Below are positions 15,001 through 64,000 of a stretch of 64,000 nucleotides of DNA, piece after piece (the first letter of the stretch is position 1; each line of letters opens with the position of its first letter). This DNA is from Antedon mediterranea (Eukaryota > Echinodermata > Crinoidea > Comatulida > Antedonidae). The stretch is from positions 1,307,001 through 1,371,000 of the forward strand of contig NC_092674.1 in the NCBI RefSeq assembly GCF_964355755.1. Direction: 5' to 3'. A program made the translations under genes and the position numbers. The notes beneath the pieces are model-generated. The model saw only the letters and a list, made by a program, of their open reading frames with translations, was not told where the DNA came from and did not search any database.

Positions 15001-18000
15001 ATTGACATAATATTAAAATACTACATGTTCTTGAAATGAAACATCAAAATGAAAGTTGTCTATAAATTATGAAAAAGTATAAATATTATAAGAAATGTTA
15101 TGATATTGGTTGGATACTGTTAACATAAGCAACACACAAAACTGGTAAAATGTTTACAGTTTCAGGAAGAAGCTGATTAAGAGAGGTTTAAAAGAGAAAA
15201 AAAAAACGTCATGACATACCCTCAGCAGCAAAGTACACCTGCTGACCCAGCGTATTCTTTATCACATACTTGTTGTTGGTTTCAAAGCTGGTGAAAGCTA
15301 GCAAGAAAAAAAACAAGTAATATTTAAAGTTTTAAGATTATCACTATGATTCTGAAAGCTCAAGAAAATGATATCAACATTACAATAACATGAGAGCGGC
15401 ATAATCTCAATACAAAACAATGTAACAGCTCAAAATAATAGAATATAATTATGATTTAATAGGGTACCCCTAGCATTAGGAAGATTTCGATTTGTAAAGA
15501 AAAAGGAGTAAGTTTAGGTTAAATTATTACAATTATAATTCAACCCTGTTAATGGTGACGTTTGGTCACTGTAGGGTGATGATGAAATAAAAAAAAAAAA
15601 AAAAAAATTACAATATGAGCATGTAAGTTGGGATGTACAGAACCTACAGACGTTAAGCAGTTCCTAAGCCAAGGTCATGACCGACGACACGACTCAATGC
15701 CGAGGTCATCACAAATAGACATAAAGTCAGGTCAAGATCATTTTGTTAAAATCGCAATGAACTCGTCCCGGCTTCAGAATAAAAGCGGTGTCCTCAGACA
15801 TCGCGTCAGCTGGTAAGCGACATCATCACTTCCTAGTAGATCTTAATCAAATTTCCTGCCTATATACTGTAGGTTAGGATGTATCATACTGTACTGTAAA
15901 ATATTGCTAAAATTGTTTGATGTCTGGACTTCACTGGTAGGAATTAAATTTGATTTGAGTATTGACTGCTGAACGTCTAGAGACTGATAAATGGCAACCT
16001 ACAGTATAGAACCTTTGCCCTTTGAGATCACATTTACTTATTATTACAGCCTCTAATACTAACCTAGCAAAGGTCTTGTTCAATAAATACTTTATTTCCT
16101 GAAACAAAATAGTGAGTAAGTGCCTTATACAATGTTTTCCATGACAAAAAACAAAAGAAGCCATGAAATATTAGAAATATAAATGATGATGAATGATGAA
16201 GAGGAATATATTTATTCACGAAACTGATGTACAGTACAACTCATTCACTCAACATCGATCACAAGACTGATGTACAGTACAACTCATTCACTCAACATCG
16301 ATCACAAGACTGATGTACAGTACAACTCATTCACTCAACATCGATCACAAGACTGATGTTCAGTACAACTCATTCACTCAACATCGATCATAAGACTGAT
16401 GTACAGTACAACTCATTCACTCAACATCGATCACAAGACTGATGTACAGTACAACTCATTCAATCAACATCGATCACAAGACTGATGTACAGTACAACTC
16501 ATTCAATCAACATCGATCACAAGACTGATGTACAGTACAACTCATTCAATCAACATCGATCACAAGACTGATGTACAGTACAACTCATTCAATCCACATC
16601 GATCACAAGACTGATGTACAGTACAACTCATTCAATCAACATCGATCACAAGACTGATGTACAGTACAACTCATTCACTCAACATCAATCACAAGACTGA
16701 TGTACAGTACAACTCATTCAATCAACATCGATCACAAGACTGATGTACAGTACAACTCATTCAATCAACATCGATCACAAGACTGATGTACAGTACAACT
16801 CATTCACTCAACATCGATCACAAGACTGATGTACAGTACAACTCATTCACTCAACATCGATCACAAGACTGATGTACAGTACAACTCATTCAATCAACAT
16901 CGATCACAAGACTGATGTACAGTACAACTCATTCACTCAACATCGATCATAAGACTGATGTACAGTACAACTCATTCACTCAACATCGATCACAAGACTG
17001 ATGTACAGTACAACTCATTCAATCAACATCGATCACAAGACTGATGTACAGTACAACTCATTCAATCAACATCGATCACAAGACTGATGTACCGTACAAC
17101 TCATTCAATCAACATCAATCACAAGACTGATGTACAGTACAACTCATTCACTCAACATCGATCACAAGACTGATGTACAGTACAACTCATTCAATCAACA
17201 TCGATCACAAGACTGATGTACAGTACAACTCATTCAATCAACATCGATCACAAGACTGATGTACAGTACAACTCATTCACTCAACATCAATCACAAGACT
17301 GATGTACAGTACAACTCATTCAATCAACATCGATCACAAGACTGATGTACAGTACAACTCATTCAATCAACATCGATCACAAGACTGATGTACAGTACAA
17401 CTCATTCACTCAACATCGATCACAAGACTGATGTACAGTACAACTCATTCAATCAACATCAATCACAAGACTGATGTACAGTACAACTCATTCACTCAAC
17501 ATCGATCACAAGACTGATGTACAGTACAACTCATTCACTCAACATCGATCACAAGACTGATGTACAGTACAACTCATTCAATCAACATCGATCACAAGAC
17601 TGATGTACAGTACAACTCATTCAATCAACATCGATCACAAGACTGATGTACAGTACAACTCATTCAATCAACATCGATCACAAGACTGATGTACAGTACA
17701 ACTCATTCAATCAACATCGATCACAAGACTGATGTACAGTACAACTCATTCAATCAACATCAATCACAAGACTGATGTACAGTACAACTCATTCAATCAA
17801 CATCGATCACAAGACTGATGTACAGTACAACTCATTCAATCAACATCAATCACAAGACTGATGTACAGTACAACTCATTCAATCAACATCGATCACAAGA
17901 CTGATGTACAGTACAACTCATTCAATCAACATCAATCACAAGACTGATGTACAGTACAACTCATTCAATCAACATCGATCACAAGACTGATGTACAGTAC

Positions 18001-21000
18001 AACTCATTCAATCAACATCGATCACAAGACTGATGTACAGTACAACTCATTCAATCAACATCAATCACAAGACTGATGTACAGTACAACTCATTCAATCA
18101 ACATCGATCACAAGACTGATGTACAGTACAACTCATTCAATCAACATCGATCACAAGACTGATGTACAGTACAACTCATTCCATCAACATCGATCACAAG
18201 ACTGATGTACAGTACAACTCATTCAATCAACATCAATCACAAGACTGATGTACAGTACAACTCATTCAATCAACATCGATCACAAGACTGATGTACAGTA
18301 CAACTCATTCAATCAACATCGATCACAAGACTGATGTACAGTACAACTCATTCAATCAACATCGATCACAAGATTGTGATATTACAAAAAAATCCATCAC
18401 CATTTTTACCGCTCTGTTCTGCAGCACTTTGAAGTGCCAAATAACTGTGTTATATTAACTGTACACAAACTGAAAAACATTTTTTGGTGACGTGGAACTG
18501 AAGAAATCAACAATACAAGATTAATTATTAAAGTCATAATTTATCCATTCGAATTAAAAATTAAATCATATTTTAGTGATTCAATTAAATCCCTTTTTAT
18601 TATTCAAAAGAATTAAACAAATTGTAATCGAAATCGTCTTGGTATATCAATGATTAATGGAAGTCTACAAACTATGTAAATATTGTATTCCATTAGTGTT
18701 ATGATTATGTTTACTGAATAAATCTACTTGTAACCAAGTAACTATGGCGATAAGCTGATTTACATAACAGTTTAACATTAAGTAATGTTAAATATTATTC
18801 ATTCTTATGAACACAAAATAAATTAATTTGTGTACAAGTGTAACATACTTACAAGTGGAGTGGAATATGATTATAAAATTATTATTATAAAGTACTAGGG
18901 GTAGAGAATAAATATAATAACCCGGTTGTAAACATGACCTCACCCAATAACAATGTCAAAGATAGCACTATGTAAATAGTTTTGTAATTCAGGTCAACAA
19001 ATAGGTGAAGGATATATGTACAGTGCTGTATACTGAAAAAATATACACTTAATAATGTAAACATACGGAACACATAAAGTTGATTTATGTAAAAAGATAA
19101 TCACATATATAAAAATATTACTGGTATTAATAATAATAAATATTTTATTTTAACACGGAAAAGCTTGTATCATCACCTCAATACAAAAACGTATTCTTCA
19201 TTATCATTTTTTTAGTTTCGTTATTCCGTCACAAAACTAATAAAAACAGGGACATTAAATTATTAAAATTTTATTTGCAGTACCATGAACCTATAAATTA
19301 GACCTAATTGATATGGCTATGGTAGCACTACAGTATCTAGTACAAAGAGATGCATCATTGGTTATTGTGAAATGGAATTGAGTAGCTGTTTTATTGCTGA
19401 ATTATTACAGGAGAAAATTATAATCAATTTGTTGATGGATCTTATCAATCAAACTGTCATGTCTTGTAGATCCTGTTTTCTAAATTACTGGTTTCTTTCT
19501 AAACAATTAAAATGTTAATTTAACATTAATAGAGCATACCGGTAGGTGTTGTATATTAATATGAAAAGAAAATTCATATAATTAACACATTTTCAAGACG
19601 ACCCCTAAAACTATTTAATTGTAACACCTGGTCAATAACTACCTTTCAAGTTTATTCAATACAAACAAACATGTCAATAATCTATAAAGTATTACTTACA
19701 TTCTAGTCTAAAGTAGATAGAGGATGTCTATAATAAAGCTGGGGGTGTACCATGTGTGGTTTCAACAAGGACAACTTCCTGGTTTGAGGTTAGGTAGGGA
19801 GGAACCAGGAAGCTAACAAGGTGCAAGACAGAGATACTGTATCTCAACAGAAGCTGCTCCACAAACTACTGTGTACAAACATGCAGAGTGGAGGACCTAC
19901 ATTTCTGATTTTACGTTCCCTGGAGACTTTAAAATGATCATTAACATCATCCCTTGTTGTAATACATCATATATTTATTATAATAGTCTAATTAGACTCA
20001 TGTCTATTTTCCTATCATTGTCCTGAAGATCGTTGTACAGTAGCACAACAATACAGGAGTAGTAATATAATAATCTATTTCCTTTATTACACATGGTGTA
20101 CCGTAAAACTAAACTTTAAATTAAACTTTACATTATATAATAGTTTTGTCTTAGAAATTTGCTGGTATGTTTATTGAAAAAAAGTAATCAAATTATTACT
20201 GCACATGGGGGTTAATTTTAGGGGGTTAATTTTAAGGGGGTCAACCTGAATTTTAAGGATCCTATATTATGTGTACAGTATACATTTTGGTAAAATGTAG
20301 GCACATCACGCTTTTTCTGTCAAACTAGTTTGATAGTGTAGACAGAAGTTTCTGTACTTAACTGTATAAAATCAATTCTTTATTAATACATCAAAACAAA
20401 TTTAATAACCTTATCATCAAGAAGGCAAGCAAAAAACAAACAAATAAACAACATCAGAACTTTAAAAAACAAATAATCATGTCTCCTAAATTAATAAACA
20501 TTTGTTCAAGATTTACCTTCTAAGAGCTCAACTTGCTGGTGTACCAACAGTTGATCAATCTGGGTGAGATATTCCAGCCCAGGAGGACAGTTTGAAATCT
20601 GCTGCGGTACAGGCATCCACGTTGACGCCACCGTGCCTGGCGGTGCAGGGGGTTGTCCAGCACCCTGAGGCTGACCATAAGGATTAGGCTGTTGTCCCTC
20701 AGGTGGTGGGTAAGGTTGGTTGCCTTGAGGGGGAGGGTAAGGTTGGTTTACAGTTACTGGTTGTACTGGAGGATAAAATGGTTGTTGTCCATAGCCTATG
20801 GATAGAATTTATACAAATTGTTGTCAATATTTACACAGTTGACAGTATTCATTGTATTCATTGTATTCATTGTATACTCAAATGTTTACAGACAATGTGT
20901 CACAGCTGAAATTCTCAAATTAAATCGTTTTCAACAATCATTACAGTTCACTGTCCCAAAAACCTTTTTTATTGAGGTCCTAAATGTCCCAAATTTAAAA

Positions 21001-26962: not shown

Positions 26963-28300
26963 TTGTAAATTCAAATTACTACTGCAGTAAAGTAATTTTT
27001 GTTTGTATTTTCACGTCTAAGACATTAATTGTTTTTTATAAATTTATTTTAGTTTAGATCATGGGACTGGTGACTCTTGTAGTTACTTCTTTACTTATTT
27101 ATTTTAGCAGTCCTGATTATTTCAGCTGCTGTATATTTTACATATGGTTTGTTGGTCAAATAAATAAATGAAAAGAATGTGAATAGAAATGATGAAAGAC
27201 TGCTGTGTGAACATGAAAAAACAGAAGAGAGCATAATAATCCTAATAAACCAATCAGGTCATTTAATTTCTTGCTATATTTGGTCTTTGTAAATTAATAA
27301 CTGATAACAAATTATTATTACACTGTAAAATTAATTGATATATAATTATACTATGGTACTATAATTAAGGGATTTAACTTTTATTTATTAATAAAGGAGA
27401 TAAACACTTATATAATGTTCTGATTTTGTATTTGGAACCACATTCGATCGGTAAAAGGAGGTTTTATTTCTTCGGTGAAAAATGTCAATTTTCATACAAT
27501 ATTAACAAGTTTCTTTATTTCGGCTACATTATGTTGCTGCCCTCTATTCGTAACACGTGAGTTAACTTTATTAATCGACCATATTTCGCTACGCACACGT
27601 CACAACAAAAGAAGTTGTTATTAGACTGAAAAGTAAGTTTAAATTTAAAGTTATCGACGCTAATTTGTCTATGAATCATACCAATATATAATAATGAATT
27701 ACACTCTCATAAAATTCCCAGGCTAAATGTTGGCCTATTCTTGGTAAGTGATGTGCTAGGCCACACATGGTTAGTCACCGCCGGTAAATAGACGATATAT
27801 CCGGGGGAGAGATGATAACAGAGACGATTGGGTCTAGGCTACCTTTGCTCAACTTTCAGCCACCGGTTGGATAAAAGGAGAGATAACAGCACCAGGACCA
27901 CTTACTAGTTGGTTTAATCCTGCACGAACGACAGCACTTACACTCAATGCAATAATTCACAATTCCCTGTCCTTAAAAATCCCTTTCTTTTCATTAAACA
28001 AAAGTCAAAATGGATAGTAATAAATTATAGTATTTATTAATATTTTATAAATAATGTCAATGGTTGGCCATTTATGCAGGTAGAACGCAACAAAAGTAAC
28101 AGTATCTGGTGTCGGTAATATATCCCATTTCAATAATCTTGTCCAACAATGAGCCATCAACTACAATATTTTTTGTTTTCATTATTGCCAAGCTAGCTAT
28201 CTGAACTGTACTTAGTGTTGTATCTCATACATTACATTCAGTGCCGCAGTCAAATTCTATTATCACTCTCGGCTTTTACATTTTTGTTATTTTCAGTATT
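26963..28300. other. PIPOX 3' end and TMEM254 5' region
   Basis: PIPOX 3' UTR with overlapping AATAAA at about 27159-27168. Further right, a donor-like A|GTAAGTTT near 27632 could end a 5' UTR exon that joins the TTTCAG acceptor at 28296, five bases before the TMEM254 ATG. The stretch 27.72-27.95 kb is less AT-rich, with GGCC-type words. No other coding exon is recognised. Confidence 0.4.
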
Positions 28301-29633
28301 ATGGCGGTTGATAATCAGTACTTTCGATTGCCCAGTGTTTTCTGGATGGTATCTGTCTCGAGTGGCATTGCACTATTAACGGTAAGTTCATTGTCATTTC
28401 CCAGTGTTTTCTGGATGGTATCTGTCTCGAGTGGCATTACACTATTAACTGTAAGTTCATTGTCATTGTCCAGTGTTTTCTGGATGGTATCTGTCTTAAG
28501 TGGCATTGCACTATTAACGGTAAGTTCGATGTCATTGCCCAGTGTTTTCTGGATGGTATCTGTCTTGAGTGGCATTGCACTATTAACGGTAAGTTCGATG
28601 TCATTGCCCAGTGTTTTCTGGATGGTATCTGTCTTGAGTGGCATTGCACTATTAACGGTAAGTTCATTGTCATTGCCCAGTGTTTTCTGGATGGTACTGT
28701 CTTGAGTGGCATTACACTATTAACGGTAAGTTCATTGTCATTTACTTTTCCTTCTTTAAATTTTATATAAATATTTTTGATAAATAAAGATTTTGATAAA
28801 TTAAAACATTACTTGTTGATTTTTTTTTTACAGCTAGCAACTTTTACTCCAGCAGTAGTTCCACATGAGTACCTTGGACCAATTGGATGGTTAACTAGAT
28901 ATTTAGTCAATGAATGGCCTGCTATACTTAATATATTGTAAGTACAAACTTGAAATACAGTTTATACAGTATACAGTAATTATGTACATGATTTCATTAA
29001 TATTTAATTAAATTTTTAAAATCTTGTGATATTGCAGAATGGTATTCACAATAGCATCACACACTGTAGAAGCTTGTTGTGCAGTAAACACTGCTAAGTA
29101 AGTTGTTTATTTATTGTTTATAATAGATTTATCCATCCTTAGTATAAAAGGTTCATCTGGATCTCTGTATAGTATTCAGAGATTTGTTTCTGTAATTAGC
29201 AAGTTTGTTGGATGAAATGAAAAAACTGTATGAACAATTGGATGAAACAAGATATATCACCATTCTTCATCTACTTCACATCTTAAGTATTTAAAAGTAT
29301 TTTGTTAATGTTAAATTAGCTTGCATTACATGTACCTACCAGTATAGTAGTAATTCTTATGATAAGTGGTTTAACCATAAGAATGTAAAAAAAAAAAAAC
29401 ATTTTCTGTTGAGCACAATGGTTTCCACATTTAAGTACAGAAGTTTAAACTTCTATATTTAAGCATAGACTTTCACTTATTTATTTTTTTCATGGTATAA
29501 CTTTGGTGTTTTTTTTGTCAGAAATAAATCAATTGAAAACCCAGCGAGACGGAAATGGTTGATATCTGTATTTGTGTTTGGTTATTTTTCCTACAGGCAT
29601 CTACTTGCCTACAAGCCAAATAAAAGCAAGTGA
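28301..29633 (+). CDS. TMEM254: Transmembrane protein 254, 118 aa
   Basis: Four coding exons: 28301-28381, 28834-28937, 29038-29097, 29522-29633; 357 nt. It matches the small multi-pass membrane protein TMEM254 (human 123 aa; molecular function not established). Hydrophobic segments are SVFWMVSVSSGIALLT, the segment around EWPAILNILMVFTIASHTVE, and KWLISVFVFGYFSY; the conserved loop is VPHEYLGPIGWLTRYLV. The C-terminus is basic (YKPNKSK). The last 51 nt of exon 1 plus the first 18 nt of intron 1 are tandemly repeated six times (28331-28743), giving six candidate donors at 69-bp spacing. I used the first donor because it gives the family's usual length. The gene is tail-to-tail with PSMD1. Confidence 0.9.
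28331..28743 (+). repeat. 69-bp tandem duplication spanning the TMEM254 exon 1 donor, 6 copies
   Basis: Each unit contains CCCAGTGTTTTCTGGATGG through AACGGTAAGTTCATTGTCAT, that is exon end, 5' splice site and intron start. Donor GTs fall at 28382, 28451, 28520, 28589, 28658 and 28726. The 69-bp unit keeps frame and has no stop, so copies 2-5 would each add 23 hydrophobic residues. Copy 6 lacks one base and shifts frame to a stop near 28703. Confidence 0.95.
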
Positions 29634-30777: not shown

Positions 30778-33700
30778 CTAATCTTCATCCACATATTCAA
30801 ACGGCTCTGGGGGTTCTGGTTCCTTTTCTTCCTCAGCGAGAGATGGACCGCCAGCTGAAAATAATAATTTTAAATCATCAGCACAAATGATTTTCGTTAA
30901 GCCTTGTCTACACTATCAAACAAAATGTGATGTGGCCATACATGGACATAATGATGTCATATCAAGTCATATTTTGGCATAGCACTACCATATTTGGGCA
31001 CAGCACACTTTTTTTTTTCAAACTAGTTTCATAGTGTGGACATAGTTTTATGTAATGTTACATAATGCTGAATGGGGTTTTACTGTAAATCGATTAATGA
31101 GGAATATGAATTACATATCCTAAAACTGTATATCTTGCATACAATGCAAGTCCGTTATTATTTAGTACTTACCTGCAACAGTTTCAACAACTTGTTCAGG
31201 TTCTTCTTCTGTGAATGCTTTGCGAGCTTTCATCATCACAATGCCACCACTTGAAAGCTGAAATTACAATACAATAAATCATATTCATTATGCACTGTTT
31301 GACTGTGTAGCACATACAGTATAAAGCTGTCTACACTATCAAACTTTATGTGACAAAAAAAAATGTTTATGTGTCCATATATGGACATGATAATGTGACA
31401 TCACTACCATATTTAAGAATATCACTGCTTTATTTGGGCACATACTTTTTTTGTCAAACTAGTCTGATAGTGTAAACAGAGCTTAACACTAAACAGTTTT
31501 ACCACTAAATAGTATTAACACTAAAGATAGACTCACCGACTTGAGAGGTTCGTATCTGCTGTCCTCTAGAGTTAACACCTTCAATTGTGCCGTCATCACT
31601 CTTGCAGGGTTTGCCAACATTTCAAAAGCAGGTTCCACTTTCTTCTCTTTACTCTCTGATTTCTCGTCTCCCTTCTTCTCTTTCTTATCTTCTTTCTTTT
31701 CTTTACCACTTTTCTTATCCTCCTTTGTTTCTTTCTCGGATTTCTTCTCTTCTTCCTTCTTTACAGTCTCTTCTTTCTTTACAGTCTCTTCCTTCTTTAC
31801 ACTCACTTCTTTCTTTACAGTCACTTCTTTCTTTTCGCCTTCCTTCTTCTTTGTTTCTTTCTTTGAAGTTTTTTCTGTCTCTTTATCTTTTTCACTTTTC
31901 ACAGCGTCTTCAGAAGATTCATCCTTTTATACAAAATAGAAACAGATTATTTTTTAATGAAATTAAAATAAATTATACCAAAATGAAACAAAATAAAAAT
32001 TTCTTACCACATCCATCTTCTCTTCTTTTTCTTCCTTTTTCTCTCTCTTCTTCGCCTTTGCCGTGATGGACAACACTGCTGTTGTCACTTTTTCCTTCTC
32101 CTTTTCCTTGGGAGTTTCCAAAGGTGCTGGGTAGCCATACATCGATGGTTTGGCATTAGATTTCAACTCTAAGACTGGCATGTTGAGGTCGGCATTTAAT
32201 GCTATCACAGCGGTTGGTGAGAACGACAAGGACAGGAAGTGCGCAAGAGGGAACCAATACCAAAGGTGAATAAACACAAACATACCGACAATAGAGGGAG
32301 CATGCATGTGACCGCTTTGGGATTGTAATCTGATGGTAACATTTCGACCACCTACAAAAATAAAATATATTTTATCAATAAAAAGAGAAGCATCATTTAC
32401 AATCAAACATGCATATTTTTGAAAGAGGAGGATGCTGGGATAGATATTGCAATATGTAATCTTACCAGCATCAATGATACCCTGTGCAATAATGGCGCCA
32501 AATTTAGCCATCACGTCCTCATGCTTGTCAGATAAGGTTTTGCTGTAAACATTTTTGAAAAATGTTACCTGGAAAATTAAAATGAATACATTTATATATA
32601 AATATCTAGCACCTGAGATACTCCTCATGAAACAGCTTGTATTTGCAGTGCATTAAAAAAACGTTCAAATCATACATTATTGCAGGACAGAAACTGCAGT
32701 AACTGCAGTATTTACACATATAATGCAGAAATAATTCACTTATCTATCAGGCTTTACATAATAAAAGGTGAAATACCTTTGGACAAGTAGCTTCTGTCTG
32801 CTGAATCAATATAATTGCGGAGGAAATGAGGGCGCCCTGTCTGACGTAATTAACTGGATCATTTAACATCGGCTCCAAGATACCAAGGGCTTCCTGAATG
32901 GGAAAAAAAACCAACTTTGTTTATAGCAGCAGTTAATTTGTTTAAACTTTTTATTATTTTAGTTTTTAAGTTCTATCTATTGCTGTATTCACACAATATA
33001 CAGTCCAGTAGCTATATGTAACATTTTTTGTTAGAAATAAATACAGTATGACATGACAAGTTTCAGTAGAATGAGCGCTGAGAAATCCTGACTGAAATTT
33101 AAAAAGTAGATTATTTTCCTCCAGATAATTATACAGCTGGGAAAAGACTGCTCGCTCCAGAATTTTGAAAGCTATAGGGAGAATACTGATTGGTCTATAG
33201 GTAGAAAACTAAACTGGGCTAAAGTGTGAACGTAACTTATTTAAAGCATGTTTTTTGATACTGTATATGGCATCTACTCTTACCTTGTTTCCAGATCCTG
33301 CACAAGCGATACCTAATGCCATTGCCGCACCATACCTCACATGTGAGTTGTAACTCTCAGACAGCAATGAAACAGCATTTGGACACTGTTCAGGTTGTCT
33401 AAATAAATTTTAATTTTAAAGTAATAATTAAGTAGTGATTAAAATCATTAATCATTTTTAATAAAAAACCTTTTAATTTATTGAACATTTTAAATAAGTA
33501 TTTCATAGATTTTCAGTCAAATTTGACAAATGTTTACATTGATGAATTTCGTATAAAGGTTATAAATAATCAGTAAATTACCACAATATAAATTATCTTC
33601 TTAACTGAATTGGTTTAAATGCTTAATTCAATCACTCACTCTACTATAAACACAAGATCTACATTTCTTTTCAAGCTATTGCTATTAAAAAGTAATTTTC

Positions 33701-39700: not shown

Positions 39701-42700
39701 TAAGTAGCAAATTAGCATTTTCTACAATTTTATGAGTGTGCTAAAAGAAATATTATATTTCTATTTCAGATAGTTCTGGCTGGCTAACAGAAAAAATTAC
39801 TAAGAGATATTTTGACAAAACATCAAATTAAATTTATTTGTGGAAAGTTTGGTTTGGATTCACATTAAATAATGTTGGTGTTGTACATTTCAAGAATTCT
39901 ATAAAAGAACAGCTGCTAGATAAATTAGGTATAATCTAGCAACAATTATGGAAAATTTACATCATTTGAATATGCATGAGATGGTTTATAATTACAGTAT
40001 AACAACAGTGGAAACCATGATTTGCATCTATTGAATATGCATGAGATGGTTTACATTTACAGTATAACAACAGTGGAAACCATGATTTGCATCTATTGAA
40101 TATGCATGAGATGGTTTACAATTACAGTATAACAACAGTGGAAACCATGATTTGCATCTATTGAATATGCATGAGATGGTTTACATTTACAGTATAACAA
40201 CAGTGGAAACCATGATTTGTATCTATTGAATATGCATGAGATGGTTTACATTTACAGTATAACAACAGTGGAAACCATGATTTGCATCTATTGAATATGC
40301 ATGAGATGGTTTACATTTACAGTATAACAACAGTGGAAACCATGATTTGCATCTATTGAATATGCATGAGATGGTTTACATTTACAGTATAACAACAGTG
40401 GAAACCATGATTTGTATCTATTGAATATGCATGAGATGGTTTACATTTACAGTATAACAACAGTGGAAACCATGATTTGCATCTATTGAATATGCATGAG
40501 ATGGTTTACATTTACAGTATAACAACAGTGGAAACCATGATTTGCATCTATTGAATATGCATGAGATAGTTACAACACTACTGTATTAAAACAACAGCAA
40601 ATATGGAAACCATAATTTACATTTTTGAATGAGATGGTTAAACTACTTTATGAAATCGCTAGTGAATTTTTCATCTAAAAATGTTGTACGAGAATATAAC
40701 GTATAAATTTGTCGAGGAAGAAAACATTAACTGGAATTCCAGCGTAAATTCAACTAAACATGACAACATTGAATGGTACAACTGGCCTATGTTGTCATTA
40801 TGTTCCGTTATATTACTCTCAATTCTTGGAAATACATTGGTTTGTCTGGCAATAGTTAAAAACAAAAAACTCCAGAATGTTACAAATTACTTTTTATTTT
40901 CGTTGGCAATTGCGGACCTTATGGTAGCTATGCTTGTCATGCCATTTGGAGTTGTTAACAATGTAACGGGTAAGTTTAATATTTATACTAGAATTCAATG
41001 TTAGATATTGAAATTCATTCATTCAATCTTTTATTTCAGAATCCCTGGTCAATAGAATATAAAAAAACTGTACTAATTACTACAACTCATTAGGATGGCA
41101 TTCCACCTGGAGAGAATCTTTGCCTAAGACGTCTATAATTGTTGAGGCTAAAACATATTTTAAATATTTCATTCCAAAATCCAATCAAATGAGAGGAATT
41201 TACTTACGGTAGGTGTTATATAATTTCATATATTTCATATTATAATATAATTATAGTTTATTTATTTTCTTGACAGGTTATTGGTCAATGGGACTAGTGT
41301 TGTGTGATATCTGGGTATCTCTTGATGTTCTATGTTGCACCTCATCCATCCTACATATGTGTTGCTTGTTTGTTGATCGTTACCTCGCGATACAAAACCC
41401 ACTTAAGTATTCGCTTAAACGCAAGACGTTACGTCAAACCGTCACTAAGATAACAAGTCTTTGGATTTTGAGTATAATGATCTCGTTACCGTTATTCATC
41501 GTTGGTCTCTTAAATCCTGAAAAAGTATTACACGACGGAATTTGCGCGCCGATGACGAAGGAATTTGTTTTTTACGGATCAGTTTTCGCATTTTTTATAC
41601 CACTACTTATTGTCATCGTGACATATTCTTTAACAACTTTGATACTTCACAAAAAATCAAAATCCGTAGAAAAGTCAGATAAGTCGAAAAAACGAAGGTT
41701 TAGAACTTTACAGAGAAAACACATTGTGGAAAAGATGCAAAATAAATTTCGATGCAAACAGAAAGTAAATAATAACTCGATTAAAAAGACTTTTCAAACG
41801 CACGAATCAATCGAAATGAAAACGTTAATTGAAAGTACAAATTTAAATCAAATGCAGGAATGTTTTCATGAACCAAATTTCTTACGAAAAAATTCAAAAC
41901 ATTACAACGAAAAGAGAGCGGAGAAGGTCCTCGGAATAATATTTGTATCATTTGTGATTGGTTGGTTACCGTTCTTCACCACAAACATTATCAACGCCAT
42001 GTGTAGTCAATGTATATCTAACAACTCGTTATTTATTTCATTTGAGTGGCTAGGATGGTCTTCAAGCTTGGTCAATCCTATCATTTATACTATTTTTAGT
42101 AAAGATTTCCAGAAAGCCTTTTGCAAACTTCTTTCCGTTGGGGGTTTGTGTCAAAAAAAGATAACAACGAGTAAAGGATTTGAAAATTATCTAACAAATT
42201 TAAAGTACAAAATAAATCAATCGCAAGAGACGCATGTTTAAATAAATATAGCAAAATTAAATTAAAATGCCAAAGACATTGTGTGCAGAATTGTTCAGCA
42301 TTTGGCTGCCTTCTGTCTGTACTGTATGGTTTTATATGAATGAATTGTTCAGCATTTGGCTGCCTTCTGTCTGTACTGTATGGTTTTATTATGAATGAAT
42401 AAATATACCTGAATATTATATTAGCATTTTTTATGAATGTCATGATTGTATATGTTTATCTGATTTGTATAGTAGTGCTAAATTTACATTTCAAACTAAA
42501 AACAACTTTAGAATGCCTAGCTGTAAATTAAATAGAATGACCTCTAGAGGTCAAATTCTGTCTAATTACAGGGTCATCCGACTCAGTGTGCAATTTGTTG
42601 CATTATCAACAAAATTTAGTTGGTTTTTATTTTGAATATATTGTATGTAATGATTAGTTTAATTGAAAAAAAAAAAATTGTTAAATGAATATTCCCCTCA

Positions 42701-45700
42701 TTACACTAAACATAAATAAGACTTGTCATTTTTATTTATTTATTACATTCACCTGTTTGTTCCCAATACATTACCTTCATTATGTAAAAGTAAAACAAAA
42801 ATCAAATAAATATTAAATGTTTAAGACAGTGAGGACATGAGTAGGAGACTTGGATTAGTAAGGCTTAGCATTGGCAATCTTGAGGTCTCACAAACCAAGG
42901 CTGACATCAATCTTAAGTATCTACCACTTTAAGGCTTAACATTCTAAACTATTACATAAAATAATTAAGTACTTAAATGGTCATTATTACAAACTAATTC
43001 AGTGAAATATTTGAATGAACCAAATAAGTAAACATGGTGATGATCTTGTACTGTATCTCAACATTACCTGTCCAGTATCATAGGCTTATTCTGTAATACA
43101 ATATCACATATTTATTCCATGTGACACAGTATTATGTTAAGTTAGGCTTATGGTCTATTATACTGGCATGATATGTGATAGATATGTGACACTGTTTTAC
43201 AGAATGTTCCTATGTTACTGTAGAAATTATCACAGTATCAAAAATATTAATGATTTGAAAGGTACAATCACTGTTTACACACTTCAGACAGATAATGTGA
43301 CCCCTGTTATGTGAAAAAAATATATAAATAACACATACCTCAAAAGTAGGAAGCCAAGTGCAGTGACGGCAGCTCGTCTGACGTCGTCATCTACGTCGCT
43401 AACTGCTACATGGAGTAATCGACGGATTGCTTTATTGTTGCCTGTACCACAGTACGCCAGAGCGATGGTGTACATACCAGAACGCCGTAGGATTGGGTCC
43501 TTGTCTCTGGCAAGACTTTCAATAAGTGTATCGGCCTCTTCCAATCTTCCGTACATTGTCTACAACACAACATACATAATTTGACAAAATACATAATACA
43601 ATCATTACGATTAAATTAAATTGGATATCAAATGCATCGAATTTAAAATAACTGTCTAACAATTACCAAAACAATAGTTATACAATCAACTATCTCAATT
43701 CCAGAATCAGAAATTCTCCCAATACCAGACTTTTCTTGAGGTTGAAAAGGTCCCTAATTCATTGTTACCATTAAAAATACATTCCAAATACCAGACTTAT
43801 TTGGCCAGCTCAAAGGTGTCTGGTATTGGAAGAGTTACTGATTTAAATTACCAAAGCTATGCCAAGACAGAGTCCTCGTAAAATCTTCTCATGTTGAGTT
43901 TCTTGCGCATACTGAAACAAACAAAAACATTTAAGTAAATAAAAGATTACATTCTGTTTTAAATATTAAAATTTACCTAAAACCAATCGCATACATTAAG
44001 TGAATGAAAAAAAAATCAGTTGGGAAATTAAAGTGGGAAAAAACCCATCAAAATCACTTACGCCAACCATGTCTTCAATAGCTTTAGCAGATTTGGATCC
44101 TAACATGACAAGCCCCATAGCTAGGCCAGCCGCTTCACCAGTAATTGCATCGTCCTGGTACAGGTTAAACTTGAGCTGTTCATAGATGTCAAGACGTGCT
44201 GTGCCCATAGCTGCTAGGCCTAGCCCTAAACAACCACCATGACGTACCATCTGCAAGAGAGAAACACACCAGAAACAGAACAATACAATATTATTTTTTC
44301 TCCTATCAGGTTAAGGGAGTGTCATAAATAATCAAGTCAAACCAAGAATAATGGAATTATAAGGAAAGCCTATAAAGCACATACACATACAGTGTGGAGT
44401 CCAGATAAGAGTTACCACATTGTATTATGTCAATATCTCTAAGTCAGTATAACGTCACCCCTAAGATTGACCAACTTTGAAACTTAAAGCTCTGTCTACC
44501 CTATCAAACAAGTTTCACAAAAAAGTGTGATGTACCCAAATATGGCATTGATATGACATCATCATGTTAATATATGGGCACATCACATTTTTTTGTCACA
44601 TAAAGTTTGATAGTGTAGACAGAGCTCAATGAGTATTTGCTTTGCTATAATATCTTACATCAGTGCTAGCATCTTTAAGTTGATTAAGTAGATACTCAGT
44701 GATAGATGAGCCATGGTTAGCATGAATAAGACCTAAAGCATACAGTCCTCCACCTTCCTGGTATGCACTACCAGGACTTGAATCCTTTGGAAGGTATGTA
44801 GACATCAGATTAAGGGCCTCCTTCTCATGACCTTTGTGAATGACCCCTAAGCTAGCTGTTGCGGTAAACTTTGCCCAGTTTGTCGCCCTTGCAAGCCATT
44901 CAAGATTGTCTCTGAAATAAATAAAACCATAACAAATTAATTGAAAAGTAATGGATTTTAAATGTGACGAGAATTATTAAACTTAATTCATCTAGAGGCT
45001 AACTACAAACTACATACATAGGTTAGTAAAACAAGGTAATACAGGTATTTATTATTGTGAATGCAAGTAAATAAAGTTGGAAAAATCAACAAAATCTGTA
45101 AAAGCAGCATTTTTCCGAAATATAAAATAAAGTATTTCAAGTTTTAGCGGTTTACTTTACCTGAGAAAAGCGTCGCTTGTTGTGCCACTGTGCATAAACG
45201 CATTTGATATAACCGTAGCATTATGACAAACTGAATTCCTAACTGCATCCTGAGAAAACAAAATGTTCATTTCTAAGCCTCTGTCTACACTATAAAATTA
45301 GTGTGATGATGTGCCCAAATATAGTAGTGTTATCACATTACAGTGTCGATATATGGGCACATTTTTTGTTACATAAAGTTTGATAGTGTAAACAGAGCTT
45401 AAATATTAAGACAAACAATATCTTATAAATAAAACTGTTTTACTATAATAAACTTGTAAATTTTTATACTACAACAGAGGGCACTATGTAGACCCATTCA
45501 GCGTGCGAGATGAGCAGGGCCTATTCCTAAACAGCGTGCGAGATGAGCAGGGCCTATTCCTTAAACAGCGTGCGAGATGAGCAGGGCCTATTCCTAAACA
45601 GTATGCGAGATGAGCAGGGCCTATTCCTAAACAGCGTGCGAGATGAGCAGGGCCTATTCCTAAACAGCGTGCGAGATGAGCAGGCCCTATTCCTAAACAG

Positions 45701-48700
45701 CGTGCGAGATGAGCAGGGCCTATTCTTAAACAGTATGCGAGATGAGCAGGGCCTATTCCTAAACAGCGTGCGAGATGAGCAGGGCCTATTCCTAAACAGC
45801 GTGCGAGATGAGCAGGGCCTATTCCTAAACAGCGTGCGAGATGAGCAGGGCCTATTCCTTAAACAGCGTGCGAGATGAGCATGGCCTATTCCTAAACAGT
45901 ATGCGAGATGAGCAGGGCCTATTCCTAAACAGCGTGCGAGATGAGCAGGGCCTATTCCTAAACAGCGTGCGAGATGAGCAGGCCCTATTCCTTAAACAGC
46001 GTGCGAGATGAGCAGGGCCTATTCCTAAACAGCGTGCGAGATGAGCAGGGCCTATTCCTAAACAGCGTGTGAGATGAGCAGGGCCTATTCCTAAACAGCG
46101 TGCGAGATGAGCAGGGCCTATTCCTAAACAGCGTGCGAGATGAGCAGGTCCTATTCCTAAACAGCGTGCGAGATGAGCAGGGCCTATTCCTAAACAGCGT
46201 GCGAGATGAGCAGGGCCTATTCCTAAACAGCGTGCGAGATGAGCAGGGCCTATTCCTAAACAGCGTGCGAGATGAGCAGGGCCTATTCCTAAACAGCGTG
46301 CGAGATGAGCAGGCCCTATTCCTAAACAGCGTGCGAGATGAGCAGGGCCTATTCCTAAACAGTGTGCGAGATGAGCAGGGCCTATTCCTAAACAGCGTGC
46401 GAGATGAGCAGGGCCTATTCCTAAACAGCGTGCGAGATGAGCAGGGCCTATTCCTAAACACATACATGTCTTATATATCATAGTCTCTATGTGCTCAACA
46501 TAACCTCATTAAGCTGACTTACTTACCTTTGTATTTTTAAGTATAAGTAAATCTGTGTGATTACTTCGTATTAGAAATTGTAATTTTAAACCAATACTTG
46601 TTTCTCCTGATAAAATAGCTGCTAACTTTTCCAATTTAGCCTGGTGTTCTTTTTCATCATCAGTCTAAATAATAAAAGTCAACCATTTTTTTTTACTAAA
46701 GTTATCATTATATATACATTATTATAGATTTATTTCATATCATATAAATTATGTAATTCTAAATGAGGTAAAGTAAAGAAAACTCTTAAAGCTTATTTTT
46801 TAACCCCAAAAATCTCTTGAGGACGACAATTTATTTTCATACCCAATATTTAAGCTCGATTCCCACTAGAATGTAACGCAAGGACGTAGATGCAACACAA
46901 GCGTGTTGACCAATCACAAGCGATAGTTCGATTAATTCATCACTTGAGATGCAAATCACTGCATTGTGTTACGTCTTTGCGTTGCGTCCTAGTGTGAACC
47001 AAGCTTTAATCAATGATGATATTAAGCAAAACAAAATATTTACATACCAGTTCCTTTGGTTTTGGTGTTTCTGCTGGTGTTGTATCAGATTCAGGTTTTG
47101 TTGAATCAACTTCCATTGCTTCACTAAAACATAACATAACTGATAATTAGCTTCAATGAAATCAAGTTGAATGCAACATATAATGTATAGGCAGTTATTA
47201 CTGCATTCAAATACAACTCTGTCTACACTATCAAAGTTTATGTAAAAAAAATGTGCTGTGTCCATATATGGACATGATGATGTCATATCACTAACATATT
47301 TGGGCACATCACACTTTGTCAAACTAGTTTGAAAGTGTAGACAGAGCTTTACACACACATTCTGAACACAACACATATTTTCCTTTAAAAAAATGTTTAT
47401 TAATGTAATGGTATTACTTATATAAAGAAAATCCAGAAATAACTGTGTTGCATGTAGACTGTTTGTAAAGAGATGTCCAATATGTCAAAAAAAGAAGTAA
47501 TTAGGAAATTGTTACCTTTGTTTTTCTGTATGTGGTGCTTCAGTAGCCAATGGGATTGGAGCAACCGAACGCAAGGCAGCTAACACCTTTGATAAGAAGT
47601 GTTGTGAGGCGCTGTCATACAGATCAAATCCTATTTGATAAGCCATTAACGTTTGTTCCTTTAAAAAAATATTTTAAAATAAAAAAAAACATTTAACATA
47701 ATTTCTCTGATGAATAGAAATACCATAAAATATTTGAAGGCCTTAAGCTCTATTATTCTACACTATCAAATTGTATGTGACAAAAAAGTGTGATGTACCT
47801 AAATATGGCAGTGATATGCTTACATATGGTAGTGATATGACATCATCGTGTCCATATGGGCACATCACATTTTTTTTGTCAGATAAAGTTTGATAGTGTA
47901 GACAGAGCTTAAGTGTTTTATTGTGATTTGTATACATACATGACCCTCTTTGACAAGTTTTCCCAGAATATCAGCAACAGCTTGTGAGTCATCAAGGAAG
48001 ATTAAACACTGACAAACGTTAATATAGTCTGGAACCTGAAGACTAGTATACAAATGGACTAAGACACGCAATACCTTGAAGGAAATTAAAAGCATCATTT
48101 AAATTCTAATTGTTACATGTTTATATCTTGTCATATTTTATTTTTGTGAGGGTCCCTAATGATCAGCTTCGACTGGATGGACCACCCTCGTAAAATATTG
48201 TTGAAATAAATAAATAAATTCTCTGTACAGCTGTCTGGTTAATTTGATAAAAACTATTACACTGTAACTTTTCATATACTAGGAAAGGAACTATTATGTA
48301 CTTGGTTAATTTAATGTTTACGTAAAAGAAAGTGCTCATTTTGGAAAATTATGTCATAATCATATCCCACAGCTAATCATGACTGGTACTTTGCCGTTAC
48401 CTTAGTGGTTTTAAATTAAATTAAATACAAATAGGCTCTATGCACTGTTTAACACAAGTGTAAAAAGAAAGAAAATGTTTATTGTTAAATAAACCAGGAA
48501 AAGTTTAATAAACCAAACAAATTGACCAAGACAACAGAAAAAAGTCCGAAAATGGAGTCTCACATCACCACACTGTTACACTAACTTGTCAAGAAAAGTT
48601 TACTTACAGTGTTTCTAAATTGCCTGTGTTGTATTAAAGACAGACACACTTTGAGGCTATACTGCATCATTTCAGCTCGGTTATCCTAAGACAAAAAGAA

Positions 48701-60916: not shown

Positions 60917-63442
60917 TTATTTAATTAAAGAGTCATCGGTTACCTTAGTCAAGTCTTTACGTTTTTCTTTCAACGATAACATATTTGCTTCCATTACTGA
61001 CTTGTACCTTAGATCATCATTTTTTTTACTCTGTGTACACATTGCTCTAGCAGCAGACAGCAGTTGCTCTCGTTGGAAATAACTTTTCTGAGAGAGCCAT
61101 TGAAATGTTTTGTTCGCCTTAAATAAGATTTTACTTTCTATATAGCTTATTCTGGAATTGGGTGCACGCTTAATATAGTGATCAAGAAGACCAAAAATTC
61201 TTTCCCCACTGATGTTGTTGCTGACACATGATCTCCCTTGTTTCACCACTTCGTCATCACATTCAAAATGGTGGCCTCCCGGCAGTTGATCTTGCAGCTG
61301 GCGCCTACATACTCGAATGACAACATCTAACAGAACAGTTAACAATCCCTTTACATCACTGTCATACTCTGTAGATGTTGTCAGGCTGTTAAACACGTCA
61401 TCTTCATTGACATGTATGTCTTTGAATATGGTTGTCTTCTCACGTCCAACAACTAATGACGAAGGGTCAACTTTCCACTCTTCTAACTTCTCCACTGCGT
61501 GCATGAATGGCTCGTTTGTTTCAAGAATGCTTTGGTCTCTCTCAACAAAAGTCATCCATGGTCCTGAAATGTATTTTCCTACTATTCCTAGCGCTCGGCA
61601 ACCTATTTGAATTTCACTGATTTTGCTATCAGCCAAGACTGCTTGATGCAGGTCATTTGTTGGCAGCCATACTTTGGTGAAGAATTCTTGCAAATATGGT
61701 GTTAAATAATAAACAGCGCCGGCATTTCTATAAAGAATATGAAATCGATTGCCCATCACCTTTGACAGTATCTGGCCTAGTTTTATATCATTTTCTTTGA
61801 GAAAACAATGCATCTCACTAGGTAAACCACTTCCATTAATGAAACAAAGCTGGCACACCGCAGCTATAAAACTCTGTGCCCCACTAAGACTTCGTCGTCT
61901 ATTTGACATCGACAACATCGACTTGTGAATTTCAGGAAAATTCTCCGCTTCCCAAGTGGAAATTTCTTTGTCACAGGACTTAGCGAATGTGTCTAAAGGG
62001 TGCATAGCACAGAAAAATTCGTTGAGGTTTTTATTACCTTCAGACTTTGCTTCTTTGATTTCACGATTTACAGCTTTATTTACAATACAACGGTCAGTCA
62101 TGGTATTTGAAATGTTATCAATTATCATCTGCGATGAATTGAATCCACTGGTGGCCTTGCTAGCTGCACCTAAATCATTGATTGTGTTGAAAATACCTTG
62201 GGCATTAGAAGTTGATGTGCCCGATGACAAAAGCGATATGCCGGTTGTATAAGTATCATTATCATCTGCAATCTGTACTTCTAAATAATGATTTCGTTTT
62301 TTTGTGGTACCATCATATTTGAGCGTCGTATTGTTTGCATATTGCAAAACCTCGCTCACATGTATTCTTGCTAGTTCTCTCATCTCTCGTAGCATTCGTA
62401 AGCAGGTGACAGCTTCTGGTAGTATACCAATATTAATGCCAGCTAGTTCTGTTACAGCATGGTGTAAAACAGACGAAATATTTGATGCAGGAACTTCTTT
62501 TTCCAAACAATGGTACACCGCACGACGAACACACCAATTAAAAGTCTTTCCATTTTTTTTTGTTTTTATGAAATTAGGAGATGATAACTCTGCAACTTCT
62601 TCATTTAGTTTGAGGACTTCTTCATTCATTTTTTTGCATTTATCACGTTCCTTTTTCAAATATGTTCTAACTAATTCCTCTTGTGATTCCAATTGGTCAA
62701 TTTTCTTCTTTAAATTTTTGACTATGGTTCGTTTTTCTCTCTTGATTTTTGACAGTGAAAGCTTAGCTTTCTTTAACTGCTCGTCTAAAACATCAGGTTT
62801 CAATTTTTTTATTTCTCTCTTCATCCCACGTATCTTGCATTTCAAAGATTCAATTGTCTTGGTTTTTCTTTTGATAGTTTGATTTAGTCTTTTTCGTTGG
62901 ATTTTTTTCGGCTTCTTTTCCAGTTTGGTTGTTAGCTTCTTTTCCAGTTTGGTTGTTAGCTCTCTTACAGAATCTTCAAGTAGTTTAATTTCTTCTGCTA
63001 ACTTCTGATTGACAGATTGTTGTGTTATGCAGTCTGCACAAGAAGTGAAAGGAAATTTCCGTTTGATGCCTTTTTTATTCACTTTTTCTGCTACAGGTAC
63101 TGGAAGGACAAATTCTTCTGCCAAAAAAACTTCCAATTTACTTCTTTCACTATCAGTCTTTCTTTTTGAGATATCTTGTCTATTTTTATTGATTTTATTT
63201 ATTTTTGAATACAAAGAACTTCCAATGTTTACATTCACATCGTTGCTTTTAAAAATCTTTGCAATCCATCGAACAAGTAACGATATTGGTTTTTTTAATG
63301 TACGTACCAGCTGTCTCATTTCGAGTACCGCACCATTTGTTAGTTTAACCCCACAAAAGTCATGCTCTTCAGCCTCTAATTTGGCTAATGATAGGCCAAG
63401 AGAGGCCGAATATTTACCGATAAAATCAACAGAGTCCTCCAT
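60917..63442 (-). CDS. 841-aa intronless protein of unknown family, possibly transposase-derived
   Basis: A single uninterrupted frame, ATG to TAA. I do not recognise a named family. Residues about 1-130: Leu-rich, then basic, ending in a CADC pair (134-137). Residues about 145-290: Lys/Glu-rich coiled coil with an 8-residue duplication (TTKLEKKL). Residues 300-841: globular, with KYDGTTKKRNHYLEVQ (D377), NTMTDRCIVNKAVN (D450), LNEFFCAMHPLDTF (H481) and SGERIFGLLDHY (E747). The D-D-E spacing, with a late Glu in a helix before a C-terminal ILFKANKTFQWL stretch, recalls RNase H-fold DNA transposases; that is inference. All neighbours are multi-exon, so a coding region without introns stands out. 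A TTTTTCACAG acceptor just upstream (near 63485) may join a non-coding first exon. No flanking terminal repeats were found by eye. Confidence 0.85.
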   Translation of the reverse strand: MEDSVDFIGKYSASLGLSLAKLEAEEHDFCGVKLTNGAVLEMRQLVRTLKKPISLLVRWIAKIFKSNDVNVNIGSSLYSKINKINKNRQDISKRKTDSERSKLEVFLAEEFVLPVPVAEKVNKKGIKRKFPFTSCADCITQQSVNQKLAEEIKLLEDSVRELTTKLEKKLTTKLEKKPKKIQRKRLNQTIKRKTKTIESLKCKIRGMKREIKKLKPDVLDEQLKKAKLSLSKIKREKRTIVKNLKKKIDQLESQEELVRTYLKKERDKCKKMNEEVLKLNEEVAELSSPNFIKTKKNGKTFNWCVRRAVYHCLEKEVPASNISSVLHHAVTELAGINIGILPEAVTCLRMLREMRELARIHVSEVLQYANNTTLKYDGTTKKRNHYLEVQIADDNDTYTTGISLLSSGTSTSNAQGIFNTINDLGAASKATSGFNSSQMIIDNISNTMTDRCIVNKAVNREIKEAKSEGNKNLNEFFCAMHPLDTFAKSCDKEISTWEAENFPEIHKSMLSMSNRRRSLSGAQSFIAAVCQLCFINGSGLPSEMHCFLKENDIKLGQILSKVMGNRFHILYRNAGAVYYLTPYLQEFFTKVWLPTNDLHQAVLADSKISEIQIGCRALGIVGKYISGPWMTFVERDQSILETNEPFMHAVEKLEEWKVDPSSLVVGREKTTIFKDIHVNEDDVFNSLTTSTEYDSDVKGLLTVLLDVVIRVCRRQLQDQLPGGHHFECDDEVVKQGRSCVSNNISGERIFGLLDHYIKRAPNSRISYIESKILFKANKTFQWLSQKSYFQREQLLSAARAMCTQSKKNDDLRYKSVMEANMLSLKEKRKDLTKVTDDSLIK

Positions 63443-64000
63443 GATTCATCTAGTAGGATCTATTATGTGCTGATTTGAACAATCTGTGAAAAAGAAGTTT
63501 GATTTCATATAGTATTATGATGATGCTCAATGATCATCTTTCAAATTACTAAAACCCGTTGTGAAGATTTCAATAGAAAAATTCCATAATAATATTAAAC
63601 AGCATAATTTCATTAAATAAAAAAGTGTGTTTGTTTGATGTACGGTTTTCCCTAGTTATCCGGCCATGATGCCACAATTAACATTTTTTTGGGAGGTAAA
63701 GAAAACTATTTTTTGACCTGGCCTATCTCATTTTCCCTTCTCATTCAATATCAAATTCAGTCAATGATTGAATTAAGATGATACTTACATTAATCTCCGA
63801 GGTATCGTAGTATGCTACACATTACCTAAGTAAGAAACGTAATAATTTAATTATTATTTATCCATATTATATATTTTCAACATGACTATGAATTATTATT
63901 ATTATTATTATTGATTCTTTGTATCATTTTTACACAGAGCCTTTCTACTTGACAACAGAACATTTGTTAACTTTTATTTAGACCCTTATTTGGACTTTCT
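63443..64000. other. 5' flank of the 841-aa gene, no other feature seen
   Basis: AT-rich DNA with a short ATT trinucleotide run at about 63892-63912. The minus-strand acceptor near 63485 is the only splice-like signal noted. Confidence 0.5.

Follow-up and report, generated by a model that had tools for sequence, protein, structure and literature searches.

The closest described counterpart of the array reported here is found in the human CBS gene. It is a 31-bp VNTR, c.1444_1467+7(16_21), whose name defines a unit of 24 exon and 7 intron nucleotides, present in 16 to 21 copies (PMC2630376). A review locates the repeat where exon 13 meets intron 13, and associates higher repeat numbers with lower activity (PMC5188458). 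As in the TMEM254 gene studied here, the tandem unit consists of an exon end and the first intron bases (PMC2630376, PMC5188458). Gene and host are different, however, and the 31 bp of the CBS unit are not divisible by three, whereas the 69-bp unit of TMEM254 is in frame. In a second CBS variant, 844ins68, an intron-exon junction has been duplicated once, over 68 bp, and splicing removes the duplicate and leaves a normal mRNA (PMC2630376). The duplicated junction is discarded in splicing, as we propose for TMEM254, but 844ins68 duplicates the intron 7/exon 8 end and is one duplication rather than an array. As to its site, donor sites are named in PMC2630376, whereas a work cited there has a 3' splice site in its title. 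Internal tandem repeats have also been described in human duplicated genes, at the borders between exons and introns (PMC2812944). These are, again, minisatellites lying across splice boundaries, and splicing is altered by them; the system is one of paralogue variation and new introns, whereas the present one consists of donor copies, with the frame lost in the related arrays. Finally, PMC4974935 deals with a tandem duplication across an intron-exon boundary, as at TMEM254, from which a new intron arises, whereas no workable new intron is seen at TMEM254. A limited search of the literature naming TMEM254 found nothing on repeats in this gene, and a few searches of limited coverage for donor-spanning minisatellites or duplicated donors met no case beyond CBS and those of PMC2812944 and PMC4974935.

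The TMEM254 gene lies on the forward strand of the 64-kb stretch of DNA that was analysed (the window, to which all positions refer unless a contig is named), where G+C varies from 29 to 38% in 4-kb steps. Its splice sites were set by eye. The first coding exon runs from the ATG to the first donor (28301-28381), its final 52 nt being the exon part of the first repeat unit, and is followed by coding exons 2 (28834-28937), 3 (29038-29097) and 4 (29522-29633, stop codon included), which together encode a single open 118-residue protein. An 82-residue query made of exons 1-3 matches PF14934 with an E-value of 7e-10 (39.5 bits for a cut-off of 23); the match covers residues 24-82 and spans the donor-1 junction, located after residue 27. 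A pyrimidine-rich, acceptor-like stretch ending in AG can be read at 28281-28296, 4 bases 5' of the ATG. Because this sequence ends at 28296, the exon with the ATG is probably preceded by another in the transcript and, if the acceptor is real, this exon would measure 85 nt by donor 1 and 429 nt by donor 6. Protein and DNA queries, including a two-unit array query, match the assembly (354,431,138 bases in 18 contigs) only at this locus, with search tools that both score the best candidates only.

The surroundings of the gene call for a few observations. The gene for PSMD1, a 26S proteasome subunit, lies at about 30780-33400 on the reverse strand, convergent with TMEM254; a joined piece of it matches human PSMD1 entries with an E-value of 4.6e-57, and a coding repeat of 18 bp (31751-31834) is found within its lysine-rich part. 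Minisatellites are abundant in the region, with large ones at 1-848 (29 bp, 29 copies), 16216-18373 (43 bp, 50 copies), 39955-40571 (65 bp, 9.5 copies) and 45499-46460 (33 bp, 29 copies). An unbroken open frame of 842 codons (stop to stop) with a lysine-rich start, possibly a mobile element, occupies 60917-63445 on the reverse strand. No Rfam family reached the gathering threshold within the window.

Six tandem, head-to-tail units (28330-28742), each made of 52 nt of exon and 17 nt of intron, lie where the first coding exon ends. TRF reports a period of 69, 6.0 copies, 95% matches and a score of 741 over 28327-28742. Five units are 69 bp long: 28330-28398, 28399-28467, 28468-28536, 28537-28605 and 28606-28674, with GTAAGT donors at 28382, 28451, 28520, 28589 and 28658, respectively, the second donor having a T instead of a G at position -1. 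The sixth unit (28675-28742) lacks one base, and its 68 bp include an intact GTAAGT at 28726 and an in-frame TGA at 28703, so that the frame opened at ATG 28301 runs through copy 5 and is closed in copy 6. GTAAGT is thus present in all six copies, while the units differ pairwise by 1-8 changes, the gap counted. At the internal joins, the intron sequence ...GTCATT passes into the exon sequence GCCCAG, with ATT in common; the sequence 5' of unit 1 ends in TTTCGATT, and that 3' of unit 6 begins with TACTTTT. The preliminary description of this DNA had proposed a 69-bp unit holding the exon end, the 5' splice site and the first intron bases, repeated six times, and TRF and the unit alignment agree on this. 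The five intact donors that it listed are all present, and the one-base deletion in the sixth copy does break the frame; its list had, however, missed the sixth intact GTAAGT, at 28726.

With donor 1, a normal protein of 118 residues is obtained. Donors 2 to 5 are predicted to yield products of 141, 164, 187 and 210 residues, carrying one to four extra 23-mers that are hydrophobic and devoid of charged residues. From donor 6, the predicted product is broken in frame and ends after 134 residues, the stop at 28703 lying upstream of later exon junctions; a stop in such a position is expected to expose the transcript to nonsense-mediated decay. Among the copies in frame (1 to 5), eight columns carry substitutions, five of them replacement and three silent. 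Since a random change would be a replacement in 72% of cases, five or fewer out of eight has a probability of 0.39 under neutrality, the number of changes being small. The copy-to-copy changes therefore look neutral, without sign of protein constraint. The persistence of GTAAGT over six copies was considered as a sign of use and is uninformative, such conservation having a probability of 0.42 by chance alone. An in-frame period is expected by chance about one time in three and, because the copy-to-copy changes look neutral, the 69-bp period is weak evidence for a protein of variable length. The TMEM254 array by itself does not decide between the protein and the neutral readings.

The assembly was searched for other minisatellites containing donor words. 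This retrieved 25 arrays, which with TMEM254 make 26, two single matches from the GGTAAGT search and one simple repeat from the AAGGTRAGT search having been set aside; in the GGTAAGT searches, arrays were taken from the first 100 or so matches listed, on contig C1. Protein homology extends across the donor-1 junction in five of the 26, and is one-sided in three; three more have open exons with no accepted family. The five are TMEM254, DHX8, a DNAH3-like dynein, eIF3L and an ABCC transporter. DHX8 aligns ungapped across the junction (E 6.7e-58). The dynein heavy chain matches DNAH3 (E 4.8e-27) and is ungapped in the best alignment; the top row of the search is a chain of 4069 residues that bears the name of a different protein (E 3.2e-27). 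For eIF3L, the match across the junction has an E-value of 1.2e-36, and Pfam Paf67 is found with 1.3e-24. The ABCC match across the junction reaches 1.8e-13, with Pfam ABC_membrane below the cut-off; an alternative placement of the acceptor was poorer (E 9.3e-11, with a gap) than the one adopted. Homology is one-sided in MIGA (E 9e-6, 25.4 bits for a cut-off of 25), where the match starts one residue ahead of the junction, and in a pair of SRCR genes, L026 and L027, where the domain lies in a downstream exon (E 1.5e-31; L026 was the one searched). In L033, L035 and L023, exons of at least 33 residues are open to the first donor and show no accepted family; an additional search with L035 gave no match. 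The remaining 15 arrays (L007, L008, L009, L010, L011, L015, L016, L017, L018, L024, L029, L030, L031, L032 and L034) are not assignable to a coding exon, so that arrays at coding exons are the minority of donor arrays. One of the 15, L034 (assembly G000, C7:29502500-29504800), is a donor array of 37-bp units, followed downstream by an open frame with a possible signal peptide at its start; its exon is possibly a 5' untranslated one.

The array of the dynein gene has 82 GTAAGT donors at 68-bp spacing over 5.5 kb; the exon end upstream of it and the exon downstream look intact. DHX8 has 22 donors, one of them GTAAGC, and 20 of its 21 spacings are 37 bp. The SRCR paralogues lie about 23 kb apart on C6 of G000 and are 91% identical over 1,565 bp, the array included. 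In both, a donor array with 53-bp units lies at the end of a signal-peptide exon, with 25 donors in one and 17 in the other, indicating that array length has changed between the two. Within the first 19.4 Mb of C1, the GGTAAGT matches listed contain at least three homology-supported arrays (DHX8, eIF3L and dynein); scaled to 354 Mb, this would mean roughly fifty such arrays genome-wide, an estimate of very large uncertainty. These arrays form a recurrent, testable class, of which TMEM254 is one instance.

When each donor was joined to the downstream exon, several of these joins being set by eye, the first donor alone was found to keep the frame without a stop in all ten relatives of the TMEM254 array: one productive donor out of 22 in DHX8, 82 in dynein, 14 in eIF3L, six in ABCC, six each in MIGA, L033 and L035, 22 in L023, and 25 and 17 in the SRCR pair, counted there on GGTAAGT words. 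In TMEM254, donors 1 to 5 of the six do so. Only one locus out of ten, TMEM254, has a period divisible by three (the SRCR pair being taken as one locus, and L035, whose spacing is variable, as 52); since the probability of one or fewer is 0.10 when one third is expected, no shortage of in-frame periods is claimed.

We favour, at about three chances in four, an explanation in which tandem duplication and expansion have taken place over the 5' splice site while splicing occurs mainly at the exon-proximal donor, TMEM254 belonging to a recurrent and tolerated class. An initial tandem duplication, apparently at the shared ATT (a 3-bp microhomology), would have copied 52 nt of exon end and 17 nt of intron, and slippage or unequal exchange could later have brought the array to six copies. 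With the exon-proximal donor at 28382 mainly used, normal TMEM254 would be made and copies 2 to 6 would leave within the intron. The choice of donor 1 could reflect exon definition or early binding of U1, which would commit to whichever donor is transcribed first; both are textbook ideas invoked here as a putative cause, and exon definition is a likely one because donor 1 closes a short exon (85 nt in TMEM254 and about 124 nt in DHX8). Gene identity and frame imply that DHX8, DNAH3 and the others can work in the animal only through use of their first donor. The genes of the class presumably do work, which would mean that donor 1 is used in them and, by the rule drawn from these relatives, TMEM254 likely uses 28382. 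Minisatellites over 5' splice sites would be tolerated because the exon-proximal donor keeps being used. Several points count against this explanation. Test systems in which equal donors are set in competition often favour the one nearest the intron, and in TMEM254 this would be the unproductive donor 6. The later donors of TMEM254, unlike those of its relatives, are open. In addition, the upstream exon is without homology support in MIGA and the SRCR pair, where homology is downstream, and in L033, L035 and L023, for which no family was found. Several exon joins were set by eye, and the 15 unassigned arrays leave the class a minority among donor arrays.

Donor 6 is also central to a reading that we regard as doubtful, in which donor 1 is dominant but a real fraction of transcripts is spliced at later donors, chiefly the sixth, and lost to nonsense-mediated decay, so that TMEM254 output falls with copy number. 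Donor 6 is indeed intact, is the closest to the acceptor (leaving a 108-nt intron) and leads to the stop at 28703; in human CBS, activity is lower when the 31-bp repeat is present in more copies (PMC5188458). The preliminary description had left two readings side by side, a natural length-variable membrane protein and tolerated splice redundancy. The second fits best and is likely; the first is possible on paper, but nothing found here supports it. It would have donors 1 to 5 all in use, giving TMEM254 proteins with one to five first membrane segments, and it can appeal to the open frames, to the hydrophobic, uncharged 23-mers and to the identity of four of these five donors from -3 to +6. Nevertheless, the five replacement and three silent changes show no enrichment for silent ones, donor 6 leads to an early stop, and the ten relative arrays are out of frame and productive at donor 1 only; near-loopless hydrophobic repeats and an altered number of helices would also be expected to disturb topology. 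We consider such a protein quite unlikely. Also very unlikely is a combined scheme in which donors 1 to 5 produce a protein ladder, donor 6 acts as a nonsense-mediated decay sink and copy-number alleles set the mix; if it were true, TMEM254 would be the sole member of the donor-array class of this genome whose later donors are read as protein.

Two further possibilities concern the repeats themselves. Every unit contains CCCAG or TCCAG 23 nt past a donor, and could thus provide both donor and acceptor for internal pieces to be spliced out as new introns. The piece cut would, however, be 23 nt, which is too short, or 92 nt, skipping one unit; neither is divisible by three, and the AG has no good pyrimidine tract before it, as judged by eye. 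A workable, frame-keeping new intron with donor and acceptor inside the TMEM254 repeats was looked for and not found, and intron gain is scarcely credible here. That the array is an assembly artefact, or an expansion private to the individual and without wider meaning, is suggested by the use of one assembly only and by the proneness of tandem arrays to error. But the copies bear distinct variants, the flanks of the array are unique, and other donor arrays occur at further loci on several contigs, all of which makes this highly improbable.

The choice of the spliceosome between equal 5' splice sites is a long-standing problem, and most work on it has used constructs with two sites. In this genome, natural genes carry 6, 14, 17, 22, 25 and 82 near-identical tandem donors and, TMEM254 excepted, the use of any donor but the first leads to a broken frame or a stop. 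Ordinary RNA sequencing of the animal would measure the rule of donor choice directly. The kind of array is already known from the human CBS VNTR; its recurrence and size in one genome are what make it a natural test. If the favoured reading is true, a minisatellite can apparently occupy the splice site of a conserved gene without destroying it.

Special seeding of minisatellites at donors is not shown by the word counts. With CAGGTRAGT and gaps of 28-58, 101 matches were obtained, with 9 arrays among the 100 or so listed; the reversed word gave 19 matches and 5 arrays. As single words, CAGGTRAGT and its reversal occur 4451 and 3226 times, a ratio of 1.4, and therefore about 7 arrays would be expected against the 9 found. 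Likewise, GGTAAGT exceeded its reversal in one search (1557 vs 906) and fell below it in another (1301 vs 2468), and AAGGTRAGT gave 83 matches for 1411 with the reversed word. There is thus no general excess of donor-word minisatellites over reversed words for these three words in the assembly. Among the CAGGTRAGT arrays, six of the nine were exon-end-like, compared with 27% of single words above control (P = 0.016); variants of this count give 5/9 (P = 0.071) and, with the SRCR pair taken once, 5/8 (P = 0.041), so that the enrichment in exon ends is suggestive only. Acceptor arrays were retrieved with the word TTTTNCAG and gaps of 30-60, which gave 647 matches for 200 with the reversed word, although donor and acceptor arrays are not fairly comparable because the T-rich word is common by chance. 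Fifteen arrays were collected among the matches listed on C1 and C2, after removal of some isolated matches and of a family of dispersed repeats, and L043 alone opens clearly into a coding exon. This locus (G000, C1:41235200-41236800) is a mirror case of the donor arrays: a 39-bp repeat made of an intron end and an exon start carries three acceptors, and its last copy opens into an exon that we take to be DEAD-box helicase-like.
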